This document shows, piece by piece, positions 5,893-32,955 of a stretch of 36,210 bases of DNA; position 1 is the first letter of the stretch, and every line of letters begins with the position of its first letter. A program made the position numbers and the translations under genes. This stretch comes from Acidimicrobiaceae bacterium (GTDB taxonomy: Bacteria > Actinomycetota > Acidimicrobiia > Acidimicrobiales > Aldehydirespiratoraceae). Below the pieces are notes generated by a model. It saw only the letters and a program-made list of their open reading frames with translations, was not told where the DNA came from and made no database searches. The stretch is taken from contig JAPPLH010000086.1 of NCBI GenBank assembly GCA_028819505.1, positions 1-36,210 on the forward strand. Reading direction: 5' to 3'.

Positions 5893-7200
5893 TCAGCCTT
5901 CGCCGCCGTGGTCGGCGTCGCGGCGGCGCAGCGACGCCAGGATGTCTACTCCGGTGGCAGCCTCGATCTGCTCGGTCATGGCCACCAGCGACGCCGGCAG
6001 CTGGCTCATGAGGCCCGGGATCCCGCCCCGCGAGCCGCCGTCGCCGTTTCCGTCGCCGTTGCCGCCCCCGCCGCCGGTGTCCACCACCGCGACCCGGTCG
6101 ATGCTGACGTTCTGCACGGTGGCGACGATCTTGTCGATCAGGTCGGGCAGCATGTTGAGCACCAGCACGTCGTGGCCGTCGGCGCCGGCCGCCTGGTACT
6201 GGTCGGTGAGCCGCTTGAACACCTCGACCTGGGCCTTGCCGTCCTCGACGATCGTGGCCGCCTCGGCCTGGGCCTGGAGCTGGCGGGCCTCCAGGTCGGC
6301 TCGGGCGGGAACCACCACGTCGGCCTCCACCCGGCGCTTCTCCAGCTCGATGCGCTCGCTCTCCAGCTCCTGGCTGGCCACCGCCTTGGCCGTCTCCCCG
6401 GCCACCAGCGCCTCCTCCTCGCGGGCCCTGGAGATGGCTTCGAGCTCCGCTGTGCGCACCCGCAGCGCGTTCTGCTCCTCGACGATCTTCTTGTCGGCCT
6501 CGATCTGGGCGACCTGCGCGGCGCGGCGGGCGGCCGCCTCGGCCTGTTCGGACTCCGCCTCGCGGTCGGCCTCGGCCACCCGGGCGTCCTTCTTCACCTG
6601 GGCGGTGAGGCGCCGGCCCACCGACTCGAGGTAGTTCACGTCGTCGGTGACGTTCTGGATCTTGAGCACGTCGAGTTCCAGCCCCAGTGTCTTGATGTCG
6701 TCGTCGGCCTCGTCGATGAGCTGGTGGCTGAACTTGAGCCGGTCCTCGTTGACCTCCTCGGGCGACATGGTGGCCAGCACACCCCGCAGGTTGGCCTCGA
6801 GAGTCTCCTTGGCGATCTTGCCGATGTGCATGTGGTCGACGTGGAGGAAGCGCTCGGCGGCGTTCTCCAGCAGGCCCTCGCCGCTCGACACCTTCACGTT
6901 GGCTATGCCCTGCACATTGAGGGGGATCGCGCCCTTCGAGTAGGCGTTGGTGACCGACACCTCCAGCGGGATGGTGTTGAGGTCCATCCAGGCGACCCTC
7001 TCGATGAGCGGGATCCGCAGCGTGCGACCGCCCTTGAGGATGCGGTATCCCACCGTGCGCCCGTCGGACAGGGTCCGCTTGCGGCCCGATATGACCGCCA
7101 CCCGGTTGGGCGGGCAGATCACGATCAGCGACCGGACGATGAGTATGACGAAGAGCACGGCCAGCGCCAGAGCGATACCGGCCACCATTGCTGAGGACAT
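5893..7200 (-). CDS. Flotillin-like SPFH/band-7 membrane protein
   Basis: This 435-aa membrane scaffold protein belongs to the flotillin/SPFH family, whose members organise membrane microdomains. One N-terminal membrane segment (about residues 5-27, hydrophobic through LAVLFVILIV) is followed by an SPFH domain (about 30-200). A long Glu/Ala/Arg-rich coiled coil comes next (about 200-330; EADKKIVEEQNALRVRTAEL and similar heptads). The C-terminal tail has a Gly/Asn/Asp-rich linker (GGGGGNGDGNGDGG) and a final helix. ATG 7200 is preferred over an upstream in-frame GTG at 7218 because GGGAGGGG lies 8 bases before it. Its usual partner NfeD lies further upstream on the same strand, separated by an opposing ATPase gene. 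Confidence 0.93.
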   Translation of the reverse strand: MSSAMVAGIALALAVLFVILIVRSLIVICPPNRVAVISGRKRTLSDGRTVGYRILKGGRTLRIPLIERVAWMDLNTIPLEVSVTNAYSKGAIPLNVQGIANVKVSSGEGLLENAAERFLHVDHMHIGKIAKETLEANLRGVLATMSPEEVNEDRLKFSHQLIDEADDDIKTLGLELDVLKIQNVTDDVNYLESVGRRLTAQVKKDARVAEADREAESEQAEAAARRAAQVAQIEADKKIVEEQNALRVRTAELEAISRAREEEALVAGETAKAVASQELESERIELEKRRVEADVVVPARADLEARQLQAQAEAATIVEDGKAQVEVFKRLTDQYQAAGADGHDVLVLNMLPDLIDKIVATVQNVSIDRVAVVDTGGGGGNGDGNGDGGSRGGIPGLMSQLPASLVAMTEQIEAATGVDILASLRRRDADHGGEG

Positions 7201-7208
7201 TGCGCTTT

Positions 7209-7216
7209 CCCCTCCC
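7209..7216 (-). promoter_or_regulatory. Ribosome binding site that fixes the flotillin start
   Basis: On the minus strand this reads GGGAGGGG, 8 bases before ATG 7200. It overlaps the in-frame GTG at 7218-7216, which therefore cannot be the start that uses it. Confidence 0.8.
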
Positions 7217-7266
7217 ACGCGCCTCGCGCGTCTCGGAAGCCCACTGCCCTGCCGAGCGTACCAGCC

Positions 7267-7278
7267 CCTTCCGGAAGG
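7267..7278. promoter_or_regulatory. Perfect 12-bp palindrome upstream of flotillin
   Basis: CCTTCCGGAAGG is a perfect palindrome lying 67 bases upstream of the flotillin ATG and about 100 bases before the iteron array. Its position suits an operator for the minus-strand transcript. No regulator is encoded next to it, and a 12-bp GC-rich palindrome can occur by chance. Confidence 0.35.
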
Positions 7279-7380
7279 CAGCTAGGGGGAGACCCGAGCG
7301 CCGTGAGATGAGCGCCGCCCGCGGGGCTGGCCGGTTTGGGCGGCGTCGTGGAGCCTGGCCGCCAAGACGGCCGTTCCGGA

Positions 7381-7518
7381 TGCGAGACTCCAACTAGTGT
7401 CTGTGCAATTCTCGAACTAGTGCGGCTGCAAAACTCTAACTAGAGTCTGTGCAATTATCGAAGTAGTGCGGCTGCAAAACTCTAACTAAAGCCTGTGCAA
7501 TTATCGAAGTAGTGCTAG
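7381..7518. repeat. Iteron array: six 23-bp units in perfect register
   Basis: Six units begin at 7381, 7404, 7427, 7450, 7473 and 7496, exactly 23 bases apart. Two subtypes alternate. Type A is TGCAAAACTCTAACTAG (units 1, 3, 5; unit 1 is diverged). Type B is TGCAATTATCGAAGTAGTG (units 2, 4, 6). The higher-order period is therefore 46 bp. The array is clearly AT-richer than its surroundings and ends 9 bases before the ATG of the DUF4143 ATPase gene. There are no spacers, so it is not a CRISPR. It may be a multi-site operator or promoter for the ATPase gene, or the end of a mobile cassette. I know of no described function. Confidence 0.92.
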
Positions 7519-7527
7519 CATGCCGGG

Positions 7528-8808
7528 ATGGATCCGGTTGGTGGGCATCTCCGCAGGCACCTGGGGAACCGTATTCGGGACGCTCTCGGCGGATTCCGCG
7601 TCGTCGTTCTGCACGGAGCGCGCCAGACGGGCAAGACCACCCTGGCCCGGCTCATCTCCGAGGAGTCCGGAGGAACCTACGTCACGCTCGAGGACGAGCC
7701 GACGCTGCGGGCCGCCGTCGACGATCCAGCCGCGTTCCTCACGAGTTGGCCGACGCCGCTGGTCGTGGACGAAGTCCAAGCCGCCGGCGATCGCCTGATC
7801 AGGGTCATCAAGCGGCTGGTGGACGAGGACCAGACCCCGGGCCGGTTCCTGCTCACCGGCTCCACCAACTTCCTCACCGTGCCGACCATCAGCGAGTCCC
7901 TGGCCGGCCGGGCACGAATCCTGCGCCTCGCGCCCCTGTCGCAGGCGGAGATCGCCGGTGCGGAGGCAACACCCATCGACGCCTGGACCGCCCGTGCATG
8001 CCGGCCCGACCGCGGCCGCGGCCCCGAGGCGCCCGAGCCCCTCACGCGACGCGATTACGCCGAACTCATCTGCCGCGGCGGGTATCCCGAAGTGCTCCGC
8101 CTGCCCCCCGGTCTGCGGTCCGGCTGGTTCGAGAGCTACGTCGACACCGTGGTCGGACGCGACATCGTGGCCCTGGCCGACATCCGCCGCTCGACCGCGC
8201 TCGAACCGCTGCTGCGCTGGACCGCCGCGCAGACCTCCCAGGGAGTCAACCTCGCGTCGGCGTCGAGGAGGCTCGGGATCAGCCATCCGACGGTGATCGC
8301 CTACCTCGACTGGCTCCGGACGGTGTTCCTGGTGCGGGAGCTCCCGGCCTGGTCGCGGAACCTCACGTCGAGAGCCGTCCGCCGGCCCAAGCTCCACGTC
8401 ACCGACACCGGCCTCGCAGCCGGCCTGCTGGACATCGATCCCGATGCGCTGGCGCTGACCACATCGCCGGCGATGGGAGCTCTGGCGGAATCGTTCGCGG
8501 TGAACGAGATCGCCCGGCAGGCGACGAGCGCGCGGGCTCGCACGAGCCTGTGGCACTACCGCGACGCCCAACGCGAGGTGGACCTCATACTCGAGCAGCC
8601 CGACGGCTCGGTGGTCGCCGTGGAGGTCAAGGCCAGCAGTTCGCCTTCGCCCGACGGTCTCCGGCACCTACGTTGGCTGCGCGACCGCCTCGACGCCGTC
8701 GCGCCCGGCTGCTTCACGGCCGGCGTGCTGCTGCACATGGGCCGGCACCAGGTGAGCGTGGGCGACCGCCTGCGGATGTGGCCCCTGTCGTCGCTGTGGA
8801 CGCCCTAG
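7528..8808 (+). CDS. AAA_14 ATPase with C-terminal DUF4143 domain
   Basis: This 426-aa protein belongs to the widespread AAA_14/DUF4143 family of ATPases, whose function is not established. Walker A is GARQTGKT (residues 30-37). Walker B is LVVDEVQ (about residue 80). A sensor-1-like GSTNFL follows. A winged-helix-like segment lies in the middle (ASRRLGISHPTVIAYLDWL). The DUF4143 C-terminus contains EVDLIL and VAVEVKAS, a PD-(D/E)xK-like arrangement. The ATG at 7528 lies directly after the six-unit iteron array with no good Shine-Dalgarno. The gene runs against nfeD and flotillin and separates them. Such genes are often acquired accessory genes, and toxin-like or DNA-related roles have been suggested only loosely. 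Confidence 0.93.
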   Translation: MDPVGGHLRRHLGNRIRDALGGFRVVVLHGARQTGKTTLARLISEESGGTYVTLEDEPTLRAAVDDPAAFLTSWPTPLVVDEVQAAGDRLIRVIKRLVDEDQTPGRFLLTGSTNFLTVPTISESLAGRARILRLAPLSQAEIAGAEATPIDAWTARACRPDRGRGPEAPEPLTRRDYAELICRGGYPEVLRLPPGLRSGWFESYVDTVVGRDIVALADIRRSTALEPLLRWTAAQTSQGVNLASASRRLGISHPTVIAYLDWLRTVFLVRELPAWSRNLTSRAVRRPKLHVTDTGLAAGLLDIDPDALALTTSPAMGALAESFAVNEIARQATSARARTSLWHYRDAQREVDLILEQPDGSVVAVEVKASSSPSPDGLRHLRWLRDRLDAVAPGCFTAGVLLHMGRHQVSVGDRLRMWPLSSLWTP

Positions 8809-8826
8809 CAGCCGCCGGGGGTGCGC

Positions 8827-9366
8827 CTATTCCAGTTCGGGGTCCAGGCGGGTGACTAGGGCGACGCCGCCTTCGATGCGCACGATGATGACCCGGGCGC
8901 CGGCCTCGATGGCCTTGCCGTCGTCGAGGGGGTCGATGGGCGCGGCCGTCATCTGGGTGCGGGCGCCGGCCACGCTGAGCACGATGCGGCCGCGCCTCTC
9001 GTTGGACATGGGCAGCGAGACCCGGGCGATGCTGCCCTCGATCTCGCGGTCGCTCACGTCGCTGGAGGCCTCGCTGCGGCGCAGGTAGGCGAAGGCCGCG
9101 CTGTTGAGCACGCCGGCCAGCACCCCGACCACGACGGCCAGCAGCAGCGTGAACACCGCGCCGGTCCCGAGCCATTCCGACACCAGCCCGGTGGCCCCGA
9201 AGAAGGTGGCCACGAAGGCGATGCTGCTCAGCGGCACGACCGAGAACACGTCACCCAGACCGTCCGCCTCCGCGCCCGCGTCCATGTCGGCGTCGCCGCC
9301 GCTGAACACGAACCACAGCAGCACCGGCGCCCCGGCGAACAGCATGAACGCGTACAGCCACGTCAT
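8827..9366 (-). CDS. NfeD-like membrane protein (flotillin partner)
   Basis: This 179-aa membrane protein has three hydrophobic segments (about residues 3-21, 42-62 and 66-92). A C-terminal OB-fold-like soluble domain follows (IEGSIARVSLPM through GGVALVTRLDPELE). This is the short NfeD form (YuaF-like) without a protease domain, whose partner in Bacillus is flotillin. An acidic loop (GGDADMDAGAEADGLGD) lies between the first two membrane segments. The start is taken at ATG 9366. An in-frame GTG 12 bases upstream is an alternative, and neither has a strong Shine-Dalgarno. It lies upstream of the flotillin gene on the same strand, but 1.6 kb away because the ATPase cassette intervenes. It converges on the ATPase gene with an 18-base gap. 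Confidence 0.85.
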   Translation of the reverse strand: MTWLYAFMLFAGAPVLLWFVFSGGDADMDAGAEADGLGDVFSVVPLSSIAFVATFFGATGLVSEWLGTGAVFTLLLAVVVGVLAGVLNSAAFAYLRRSEASSDVSDREIEGSIARVSLPMSNERRGRIVLSVAGARTQMTAAPIDPLDDGKAIEAGARVIIVRIEGGVALVTRLDPELE

Positions 9367-26972: not shown

Positions 26973-28442
26973 ATGAGAACAAGAATCACGTTGGTACGTC
27001 TACTGGCGCCGCTTCTGGCCTTAGGCCTGATAGCCGCCGCCTGCGGCGACGACGACGAGCCGGCCCCGGACACCAGCGCGGCGGATGCCGCCGCCGCGGA
27101 TGCCGCGGCCGCTCAAGCCGCGGCCGAGGCCGAAGCGGCCGCGGCCCAGGCCGAGGCTGACGCGGCCGCGGCCGAGGCGCAAGCGGCTGGCGACAGGGCA
27201 GCCGAGGCCGAAGCGGCGCTCGAGGCTGCCATGGCCGAGGCCGAGGGAGCAGTCGACCCCGAGGTCGTCGCTGCGCTCGAGGCGGAACGGGATGCCGCCC
27301 AGGCTGAGGCCGAGGCGGCCGCGGCCGCGCAGGCGGATGCGGAGGCAGCCGCGGCCGCTGCCGAAGCAACCGCGGCCGAGGCTGAGGCGGCCATGGAGGA
27401 AGCCATGGCCGAGCCGGAGCCCGCGGCGCCGGTCGACGTCACCCTGCAGCTGCAGTGGTTCACCCAGTCGCAGTTCGCGGGCTACTACGCGGCCGTGGCC
27501 ACCGGCATCTACGAGGACTACGGACTGAACGTGGAGATCCTCGAGGGCGGCGTGGAGATCGTGCCCGCCTCGGTGCTGGACTCCGGCGCCGCCGACTTCG
27601 CGGTGTCGTGGGTGCCCCGCGGCCTGGTGCCACGCGAGGAGGGCGCCAACATCACCAACATCGCCCAGGTGTTCCAGCGCAGCGCCACCCTCCAGGTGGC
27701 CTTCGCCGACTCCGGCATCACCACCGTCACCGACCTGGAGGGCCGCACCGTCGGCAACTGGGGCTTCGGCAACGAGTTCGAGCTGCTCGCCGGCCTCCGC
27801 CGCAACGGGCTCGACCCCGCTAGCGACGTTCAGCTGGTCCAGCAGAACTTCGACATGCTGGCGCTGATCAGCGGCGAGATCGACGCCGCCCAGGCCATGA
27901 TCTACAACGAGTACGCCCAGGTGCTCGAGACGGTCAACCCCGACACCGGCGAGCTCTACCGGCCCGAGGACCTCAACATCATCAACTGGAACGACGTGGG
28001 CACGGCCATGCTCCAGGACGCCCTGTGGGCCGACGCCGACCGGCTGGACGACGACCCCGCCTACCACGCGACCGCGGTCAAGTTCGTCGAGGCGTCGCTC
28101 CAAGGCTGGATCTACTGCCGCGACAACCCCACCGAGTGCGTGGACATCGTCCTCGACAACGCGCCCACTCTGGGCCGGTCGCACCAGACCTGGCAGCTCA
28201 ACGAGATCAACGCCCTGATCTGGCCGTCGCCGCAGGGCGTGGGCGTGATGGACACCGACCTGTGGGACCAGACCGTCGCGGTGGCCACCAGCGAGGGGAT
28301 CCTCGCCTCGGCCCCCGACGACGACGCCTACCGCCCCGAGATCGCATGGGAGGCGGTCACCAACCTGCGCAACGCCGGCGTCGACGTAATCGGCAACAGC
28401 TGGCAGCGCGTCCCGGTCACGCTGCTCCCCGGCGGCGAGTAG
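26973..28442 (+). CDS. NMT1/THI5-like substrate-binding lipoprotein with a long Ala-rich coiled-coil linker
   Basis: This 489-aa lipoprotein has lipobox LIAAAC with the lipidated Cys at residue 24. It is followed by about 119 residues of Ala/Glu/Gln/Asp-rich sequence (34-152, dominated by AAAEAEAAAAQAEADAAAAE-like repeats), predicted as a long helix or coiled coil. The NMT1/THI5-like domain then begins near VDVTLQLQWFTQSQFAGYYA, a motif seen in binders of pyrimidine precursors and related compounds. GTVGNWGFGNEFEL-like ligand blocks follow. GGGAGGG lies 8 bases before ATG 26973. It is the binding protein of the importer encoded just upstream. The ligand could be a pyrimidine or a hydantoin (inference). 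Confidence 0.93.
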   Translation: MRTRITLVRLLAPLLALGLIAAACGDDDEPAPDTSAADAAAADAAAAQAAAEAEAAAAQAEADAAAAEAQAAGDRAAEAEAALEAAMAEAEGAVDPEVVAALEAERDAAQAEAEAAAAAQADAEAAAAAAEATAAEAEAAMEEAMAEPEPAAPVDVTLQLQWFTQSQFAGYYAAVATGIYEDYGLNVEILEGGVEIVPASVLDSGAADFAVSWVPRGLVPREEGANITNIAQVFQRSATLQVAFADSGITTVTDLEGRTVGNWGFGNEFELLAGLRRNGLDPASDVQLVQQNFDMLALISGEIDAAQAMIYNEYAQVLETVNPDTGELYRPEDLNIINWNDVGTAMLQDALWADADRLDDDPAYHATAVKFVEASLQGWIYCRDNPTECVDIVLDNAPTLGRSHQTWQLNEINALIWPSPQGVGVMDTDLWDQTVAVATSEGILASAPDDDAYRPEIAWEAVTNLRNAGVDVIGNSWQRVPVTLLPGGE

Positions 28443-32531: not shown

Positions 32532-32547
32532 GCCCAAACCCTCACCG

Positions 32548-32673
32548 CGAATTGGCAGCAGAATGCACGTATAGCGGGCAAAACGCTGCCAATTCGGACG
32601 CAAGGACTGACCACCCTCTCGAATTGGCAGCAGAATGCACGTATAGCGGGCAAAACGCTGCCAATTCGGACGC
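32548..32673. repeat. Two identical 54-bp palindromic repeats between paaB and paaC
   Basis: Copies lie at 32548-32601 and 32620-32673 and are identical over all 54 bases. In each, CGAATTGGCAGC pairs perfectly with GCTGCCAATTCG, 12 bp around a 25-base loop containing TGCACGTATAGCGGGC. Copies are 72 bases apart with an 18-base spacer. They fill almost all of the 148-base paaB-paaC gap in an operon whose other joints are tight or overlapping. They resemble a REP/BIME-type or MITE-like element. An RNA hairpin role in transcript stability is another reading. Confidence 0.93.
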
Positions 32674-32679
32674 GAGGAG

Positions 32680-32955
32680 TCACTGGCGCGACTGCCGGGC
32701 GGCCTTGCGACGGGCTGCCACGGCCGCGCCGTCGTGGTGCCGGTGCGGCTTGTCGGCGTTGGGCGCCACGAAGTCGTCGTCGGCGGCGACTACATGGTCG
32801 CGGCGCACCACCCACAGGCGGTCGCCCTCGGCGCGGCGCACATATCCCTCACGGGCCAGCACCAGGGCCAGCTCGTCGGTGGCCGCCTCCAGTGCGCCGG
32901 CATGGCGGAACTCGTCGCGGCCGTCCTTCTTGACGAACACCTCGTAGACGTGCAT
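32680..32955 (-). CDS. paaB: 1,2-phenylacetyl-CoA epoxidase subunit PaaB
   Basis: This 91-aa protein starts with MHVYEVFVKKDGRDEFRHAG, the standard PaaB opening, and has GALEAATDELALVLAREGYV and RRDHVVAADDDFVAPNADKP. PaaB bridges the PaaAC complex. ATG 32955 follows the paaA stop by 2 bases. The Arg/His-rich tail (HRHHDGAAVAARRKAARQSR) ends next to the hairpin repeat pair. Confidence 0.95.
   Translation of the reverse strand: MHVYEVFVKKDGRDEFRHAGALEAATDELALVLAREGYVRRAEGDRLWVVRRDHVVAADDDFVAPNADKPHRHHDGAAVAARRKAARQSRQ

Follow-up and report, generated by a model that had tools for sequence, protein, structure and literature searches.

The AAA_14/DUF4143 gene of the window, the 36,210-nucleotide stretch of DNA from an Acidimicrobiaceae bacterium that was analyzed here, is preceded by an array of six 23-bp units, which exemplifies a feature found across the family. 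The array is probably a private cooperative operator of the gene that follows it, bound by the protein that this gene encodes.

The array at positions 7377–7514 contains six units at a spacing of exactly 23 bp, in which types A and B alternate.

A units: starts at 7377, 7423 and 7469, + strand, 23 bp each
B units: starts at 7400, 7446 and 7492, + strand, 23 bp each

Units of the same type agree at 17–22 of 23 positions, and A and B units agree with each other at 12–15 of 23. Tandem Repeats Finder (TRF) assigns the array a period of 46 bp (92% matches, score 216) and a period of 23 bp (score 101). The unit comparison and TRF confirm the six exactly spaced 23-bp units of two alternating types that had been described in a sequence-only reading of this DNA, whose starts (7381, 7404 and so on) define the identical array in a register shifted 4 bp in. 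The periodicity score for periods of 22, 23, 44 and 46 bp is 73.2 in the array, whereas the maximum among 357 further 200-bp segments of the window is 12.6, and the complete array occurs once in its own genome. The array is also AT-richer than its flanks, as previously noted, with a GC content of 0.457 versus 0.74 in the preceding 150 bp and 0.712 in the gene. Its location next to the gene start holds, but the reported distance of 9 bases from the ATG results from an end at 7518; with the last unit ending at 7514, the array lies 13 bases upstream of the ATG at 7528. A2 differs from A3 by one base, and B2 from B3 by one base. The 46-bp pair was therefore probably amplified recently, which agrees with the recent amplification suggested in that reading. 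An RNA element was rejected, as no Rfam match was obtained at E values up to 1 in positions 7200–7700.

The gene downstream of the array encodes a 426-residue protein with three predicted modules.

7528..8808, + strand: AAA_14 and DUF4143 gene, 426 amino acids, PADLOC PDC-S01 type (Pfam, PADLOC)
7561..8097, + strand: AAA+ ATPase module, approximately residues 12–190 (AlphaFold2 model)
8191..8400, + strand: winged-helix region, residues 222–291 (AlphaFold2 model)
8470..8784, + strand: PD-(D/E)XK nuclease module, residues 315–419 (model and invariant residues)

The start codon at 7528 is consistent with the protein alignment. In Pfam, the window protein matches DUF4143 (E 5.2e-39) and AAA_14 (E 7.4e-22) over the cut-offs and AAA_22 weakly below the cut-off, and no Rep family is among its matches. 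PADLOC models identify the protein as PDC-S01 (E 1.4e-142), and all six family proteins scanned match PDC-S01 models; none of six proteins matched NCBIfam. An AlphaFold2 model of the window protein was generated from 50 sequences with a mean pLDDT of 93.2 and a pTM of 0.93. We read this model as an AAA+ module, a winged helix and a PD-(D/E)XK module, the domain names being our own assignment. In the AAA+ module, residues G30, R32, G35, K36, D81 and E82 are invariant in alignment A4. The modeled winged helix comprises three helices (residues 222–234, 242–249 and 253–265) and two strands (residues 269–272 and 288–291), between which a wing extends over approximately residues 273–287. Residues E350, D352, E366 and K368 are invariant across the 50 sequences; the modeled fold and these putative catalytic residues are those of a PD-(D/E)XK nuclease, and nuclease activity is predicted. 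A Foldseek search against the PDB ranks the Pyrococcus abyssi Walker ATPase 2qen first; RuvB, clamp loaders, DnaA, Cdc6/Orc1 on origin DNA, MalT and Apaf-1 are among the further matches, and the TM-scores are low throughout. 2qen, MalT and Apaf-1 are ATPases of the STAND/MNS type, a class to which the window protein may be related, at TM-scores by query length of 0.25–0.41. Card1 and Can2 are listed as well but superpose poorly, with low TM-scores over the whole chain. A sequence search of solved structures gave nine matches to short P-loop stretches, with Orc1/Cdc6 not among them, and no named homolog was confirmed in searches with the window protein alone.

The gene and the array reside together in an insert between an SPFH gene and an nfeD-like gene.

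7272..8823 (ends approximate), no strand assigned: insert without a match in the close relative L079, comprising the gene, the array and approximately 100 bp before the array
5893..7218, - strand: SPFH/Band_7 gene next to one end of the insert (family search)
8827..9366 (upper end approximate), - strand: putative NfeD-like gene next to the other end of the insert

SPFH homologs are found in 48 of the 51 genomes of the family (own genome included). Thirty SPFH loci, one of which is the window, were fetched with approximately 1.5 kb on each side. An nfeD gene adjoins SPFH in 27 of the 29 other loci and lies within 201 bp in 24; the fetched stretches of L080 and L083 end before nfeD, and a DUF4143 gene may lie further out in these two. 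None of the 29 stretches contains a DUF4143 gene, and the gene and array are absent in all 27 relatives that show both nfeD and SPFH. The insert is approximately 1.55 kb long with a single plausible gene. Given these empty sites in relatives, the gene and the array most likely arrived together, without another plausible gene. The array had also been considered as an integration end, a role that inspection did not support: the repeats are present on one side only, and visual comparison with the empty sites, made with approximate insert ends, revealed no clear target duplication. A transposon or integrative element end was rejected for lack of a second repeat and of a clear target duplication. 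The nfeD–SPFH gap contains extra sequence in L080, L083, L088, L089 and L091 that differs from relative to relative, and the gap may therefore be an insertion hot spot. The 35 bp preceding the array (7338–7372) resemble sequence that the relative L080 carries at the same site, in what we read as the 3'-terminal part of an S-layer-type gene; this likeness may stem from an earlier insert.

Arrays of the same architecture precede most members of the family. A search with the window protein gave matches in 45 of 100 genomes (own genome included), and the own genome contains 36 DUF4143 matches, including three short ones. Among the upstream DNA listed, differing repeats lie before many of the paralogous and homologous genes. 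Upstream regions were scored by the best ungapped self-match per period, with gene-body segments as controls. In a first set, the best period was 22, 23, 45 or 46 bp in 42 of 55 regions versus 1 to 6 of 43–55 controls. The second set comprised the best 80 of 543 confirmed homologs in named genomes, and 70 of the 79 that were scored exhibited a best period of 22, 23, 44, 45 or 46 bp (controls, 2 to 7 of 77–79). When 212 AAA_14/DUF4143 loci were pooled, leaving out the window and its duplicates, 208 were usable; the best self-match occurred at 22, 23, 44, 45 or 46 bp in 168 of these and in 43 of 623 control segments, and a score of at least 9 was reached by 153 of 208 regions and by 6 of 623 control segments. 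The regions with such scores were 20 of 27 in the own genome, 62 of 87 in relatives, 8 of 16 on plasmids and 63 of 78 in named genomes. The 55 loci below the threshold were subjected to a second test, in which two units of a near relative's motif had to lie exactly one period apart. For 41 of them, a sufficiently close array-bearing relative was available, and weaker arrays were detected in 30 of the 41 versus 1 of 123 control segments. By the two criteria combined, 183 of 208 upstream regions contain arrays; the other 25 genes have none by either test, and 14 of those are outside the reach of the relative-motif test. Best periods of 44 or 46 bp occur in 34 of 208 loci, and pairing into super-units thus recurs. 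An absence of the repeats upstream of all other DUF4143 genes had been named as evidence against the claim; arrays instead stand before most of the homologous genes examined.

By score, named hosts with arrays belong to 13 phyla, a distribution in which metagenome assemblies are subject to binning errors. A distant gene on a Bacteroides uniformis plasmid (24.5% identity) has a 23-bp array with a score of 24.6. Deep branches of the tree are mostly without arrays, and arrays are also lacking before all but one of the six plasmid genes that joined the set last and before the single gene that makes up the archaeal sampling. The array of L031, a DUF4143 paralog, has a period of 19 bp and about six copies, and the best period is 24 bp in seven loci.

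Some array-less members (L074, L219, L218, L255, L259 and L258) contain long dyads close to the start codon, which fit an operator there. The best dyads score 19.5 (L074) and 15.0 (L219). A score of 9, the threshold at which controls were counted, is reached in 4 of 55 array-less genes versus 2 of 165 class controls and in 3 of 623 controls over all classes. In view of this small excess, the idea that dyad operators generally replace the array where it is missing was rejected.

The repeat unit, averaged over five clades, consists of 15–17 mostly conserved columns and 6–8 variable ones. At the variable columns, neighboring copies agree at a level of 0.2–0.7, yet the spacer length is fixed. The median GC content is 0.444 in the arrays and 0.627 in the genes, with the array lower in 142 of 146 cases. 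The distance from the array end to the approximate start codon has a median of 28 bp, and its middle half spans 17–43 bp.

The spacing and the sequence of the sites change with the protein. A FastTree tree was built from 210 proteins, and 144 loci were labeled by a period of 22 or 23 bp. The label changes 7 times on the tree, versus 40.5 times on average and no fewer than 29 times in 500 shuffles, and the 22- or 23-bp spacing follows the protein phylogeny. In Mantel tests, site similarity correlates negatively with protein distance, both for period 22 (rho -0.55, n=48, p 0.001) and for period 23 (rho -0.24, n=96, p 0.001); reverse-complement site similarity changes little with protein distance and is near background. 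At tree distances of 0.3–0.5, similarity is 16.7 for array pairs, 15.7 for the first 50 bp of the gene and 5.7 for flank pairs (background about 6). These sequence comparisons indicate that the sites co-evolve with the protein and that the flanking DNA does not, a pattern that would fit any cis–trans pair and not specifically repression. With the rest of the protein removed, site similarity is best tracked by 11-residue windows in residues 275–291 of the wing (r 0.33), versus at most 0.247 for random column sets. A second peak is located at residues 337–351, by the nuclease residues, and 15, 4 and 28 of 401 windows outrank the wing within subsets. The correlations are thus suggestive of the wing as the tracker of site sequence.

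Each array has its own core sequence. The window core is found in the own genome in its six units and at three places with three mismatches, and the reversed pattern gives four. In searches of the own genome, the L013 and L022 cores are found in their own arrays only, and the L004 core is found in its own array and at one place with three mismatches, its reversed control giving none. This L004 match is located at C167:23105-23123 of the own genome, approximately 100 bp before the array-less DUF4143 gene L016, and may be due to chance. Apart from rare three-mismatch matches, the cores are nearly confined to their own arrays in all four paralogs searched. The expectation that identical 19-bp cores always precede DUF4143 genes was not borne out in these four, to which the core is not common; what recurs is the architecture, a private 22- or 23-bp repeat before the start codon. 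A scatter of the cores through the genome, which had been named as contrary evidence, was likewise not seen, the window core being confined but for the three-mismatch matches. A shared regulon is unsupported, the cores being private for the four paralogs searched. The most alike pair among the 19 arrays of the own genome has a similarity of 0.52, which exceeds the 95% point of shuffled motifs (0.36), so some resemblance between paralogs remains.

Viral contigs were also searched with core patterns. A DUF4143 gene was present in the fetched stretch for one of seven matches to two-unit patterns (L268), none of 16 matches to the single window core and none of four matches to three-unit patterns. 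About ten two-unit matches are expected by chance, a rough estimate based on an assumed collection size, and a scrambled control pattern gave one stretch. As an array finder in viral contigs, the core patterns proved unspecific, returning mostly stretches without a DUF4143 gene. In the L268 contig, several 22-bp-spaced units precede the DUF4143-like gene. In the L292 contig, three identical 22-bp copies contain a CAATGGGACG core, and the stretch fetched there has no DUF4143-like gene.

A self-operator is suggested by several properties of the array and the protein. The encoded protein is the only factor seen traveling with the array and has a predicted DNA-binding fold, the array changes in spacing and sequence with the protein, and the array sits where a promoter is expected. 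In the proposed mechanism, the winged helix of the encoded protein would bind each 15–17-bp site, and neighboring subunits would touch via their AAA+ modules, giving a centre-to-centre distance of 22 or 23 bp depending on the protein clade. Because the array is AT-rich and its end is separated from the start codon by between a few and some tens of bases, the bound protein chain should cover the promoter, which would keep the nuclease level low. Upon release, for example by infection or by titration of the sites, expression would rise. A cooperative operator and a self-binding site for the ATPase were both among the roles listed in the sequence-only reading and are favored by the evidence, from which we infer binding by the encoded protein, the AAA+ contact, repression and the release trigger. 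Against an operator stand the lack of a sigma-70 consensus promoter in a scan of 7200–7600, the 25 of 208 genes without an array, the 19-bp period of L031, the seven loci with a 24-bp period, the windows that outrank the wing within subsets and the viral-contig matches that mostly have no DUF4143 gene.

Across the family, the promoter-like score is 8.36 in array regions versus 7.78 in shuffles (t 7.8), and the best -10 element is inside the array in 98 of 146 cases. This slightly raised promoter-like content fits promoter cover by a bound protein, and it also speaks for units that are tandem promoter parts or sites of a general host regulator rather than of the encoded protein, as does the usual 23-bp distance between the starts of the -35 and -10 boxes, which equals the array period. 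One host factor does not fit, however, because the array sequences differ between genes of one cell; the co-evolution of the sites with the encoded protein and the missing consensus promoter in 7200–7600 further make this explanation rather improbable. The previously suggested repeated promoter thus finds some backing in the family but not in the window itself. Neutral tandem duplication without function would account for the one-base differences within the A2/A3 and B2/B3 pairs as recent amplification of the 46-bp pair, but it is extremely unlikely given the family-wide period, the conserved sites with free spacers and conservation far above that of the flanks. A neutral repeat is also contradicted by the match between period and phylogeny and by the conservation controls.

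The array could also serve the predicted nuclease directly. Beyond an operator, it may be a platform, each gene encoding a DNA-reading AAA+ nuclease plus its own address on which a chain with a 22- or 23-bp step forms, and this would confer incompatibility-like immunity against DNA with the same address. We regard this as unlikely; if it were true, a private address would allow many copies per cell to work independently, and the paired protein–site set would be a natural recognition code. Alternatively, the array may be the address of the nuclease, which would assemble there or on matching incoming DNA and cut or exclude it, again as incompatibility-like immunity. The intact nuclease residues, the private sites of each of the four genes searched and the many paralogs in one genome (36 DUF4143 matches) are compatible with such targeting, but the gene adjoins its own uncut array, and the window core has no second genomic site beyond chance-level three-mismatch matches. 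We consider targeting quite unlikely, and the 16 viral-contig core matches without a nearby DUF4143 gene prove nothing about it. An origin-like element, in which the protein acts as an iteron initiator of the Rep or Orc1/Cdc6 kind and the array is or was the origin of a small replicon, is very unlikely. DnaA and Cdc6/Orc1 on origin DNA appear in the Foldseek list and some plasmid copies adjoin rep genes, but the window gene lies in a chromosomal insert of 1.55 kb that has no further replicon gene, its Pfam families are AAA_14 and DUF4143 with no Rep family, and a Walker ATPase from an archaeon leads the structural matches. A DUF4143 gene is found beside repA or repC in L066, L255 and L256, which are plasmid loci of Shinella, Dinoroseobacter and Paracoccus.

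The probable self-operator resembles several known systems in part. In archaea, origin boxes adjoin orc1/cdc6 genes, whose products combine AAA+ and winged-helix domains and have repeated sites beside their own gene; the window protein differs in its predicted nuclease domain, and the sequence search of structures did not return Orc1/Cdc6. Autoregulated toxin–antitoxin and controller-protein operators keep a potentially harmful effector low through an operator at its own gene. In the window, by comparison, a single gene would combine effector and DNA binding in one chain behind a long direct-repeat array, and the two-gene organization of toxin–antitoxin systems is not found, with one plausible gene in the insert. 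Plasmid iterons share tandem sites, a winged-helix protein and cooperativity, the binding here being proposed, and both spacing and site length are similar (iterons, 17–22 bp in a passage of PMC4980987), a likeness that also counts for an origin; the window protein, however, is an AAA+ protein with a predicted nuclease and no Rep family, and the array is located at its own start codon.

As a PDC-S01 type, the window gene is a candidate defense member. It shares a single gene and an ATPase with PD-(D/E)XK with the system outlined in PMC12988326, where the passages describing PDC-S01 mention no upstream array. The same passages rank PDC-S01 fourth among prokaryotic defenses by abundance, count 29,494 systems in bacteria and 9,986 in archaea, and state that most candidates of this kind still await experimental validation (PMC12988326). 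According to an excerpt of PMC13356809, no other individual locus in rumen genomes is as frequent as PDC-S01, and one of PMC4406477 gives a fold change of 6.6 with a plasmid present for TT_P0211, an AAA_14/DUF4143 gene of Thermus thermophilus. In excerpts of the open-licence literature on AAA_14, DUF4143 and PDC-S01, no description of such arrays was found. Should most members be accompanied by binding sites of their own, sequence would suffice to read their DNA specificity, and a single protein with a single short DNA would allow direct tests of regulation, assembly and trigger.

Two other repeat features are present in the window. At 32540–32680, two copies of an element with the dyad GAATTGGCAGC ... 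GCTGCCAATTC are located approximately 80 bp apart, near genes that we take to be a phenylacetate-type cluster. At 27077–27378, short-period repeats occur within an alanine- and glutamate-rich coding region.
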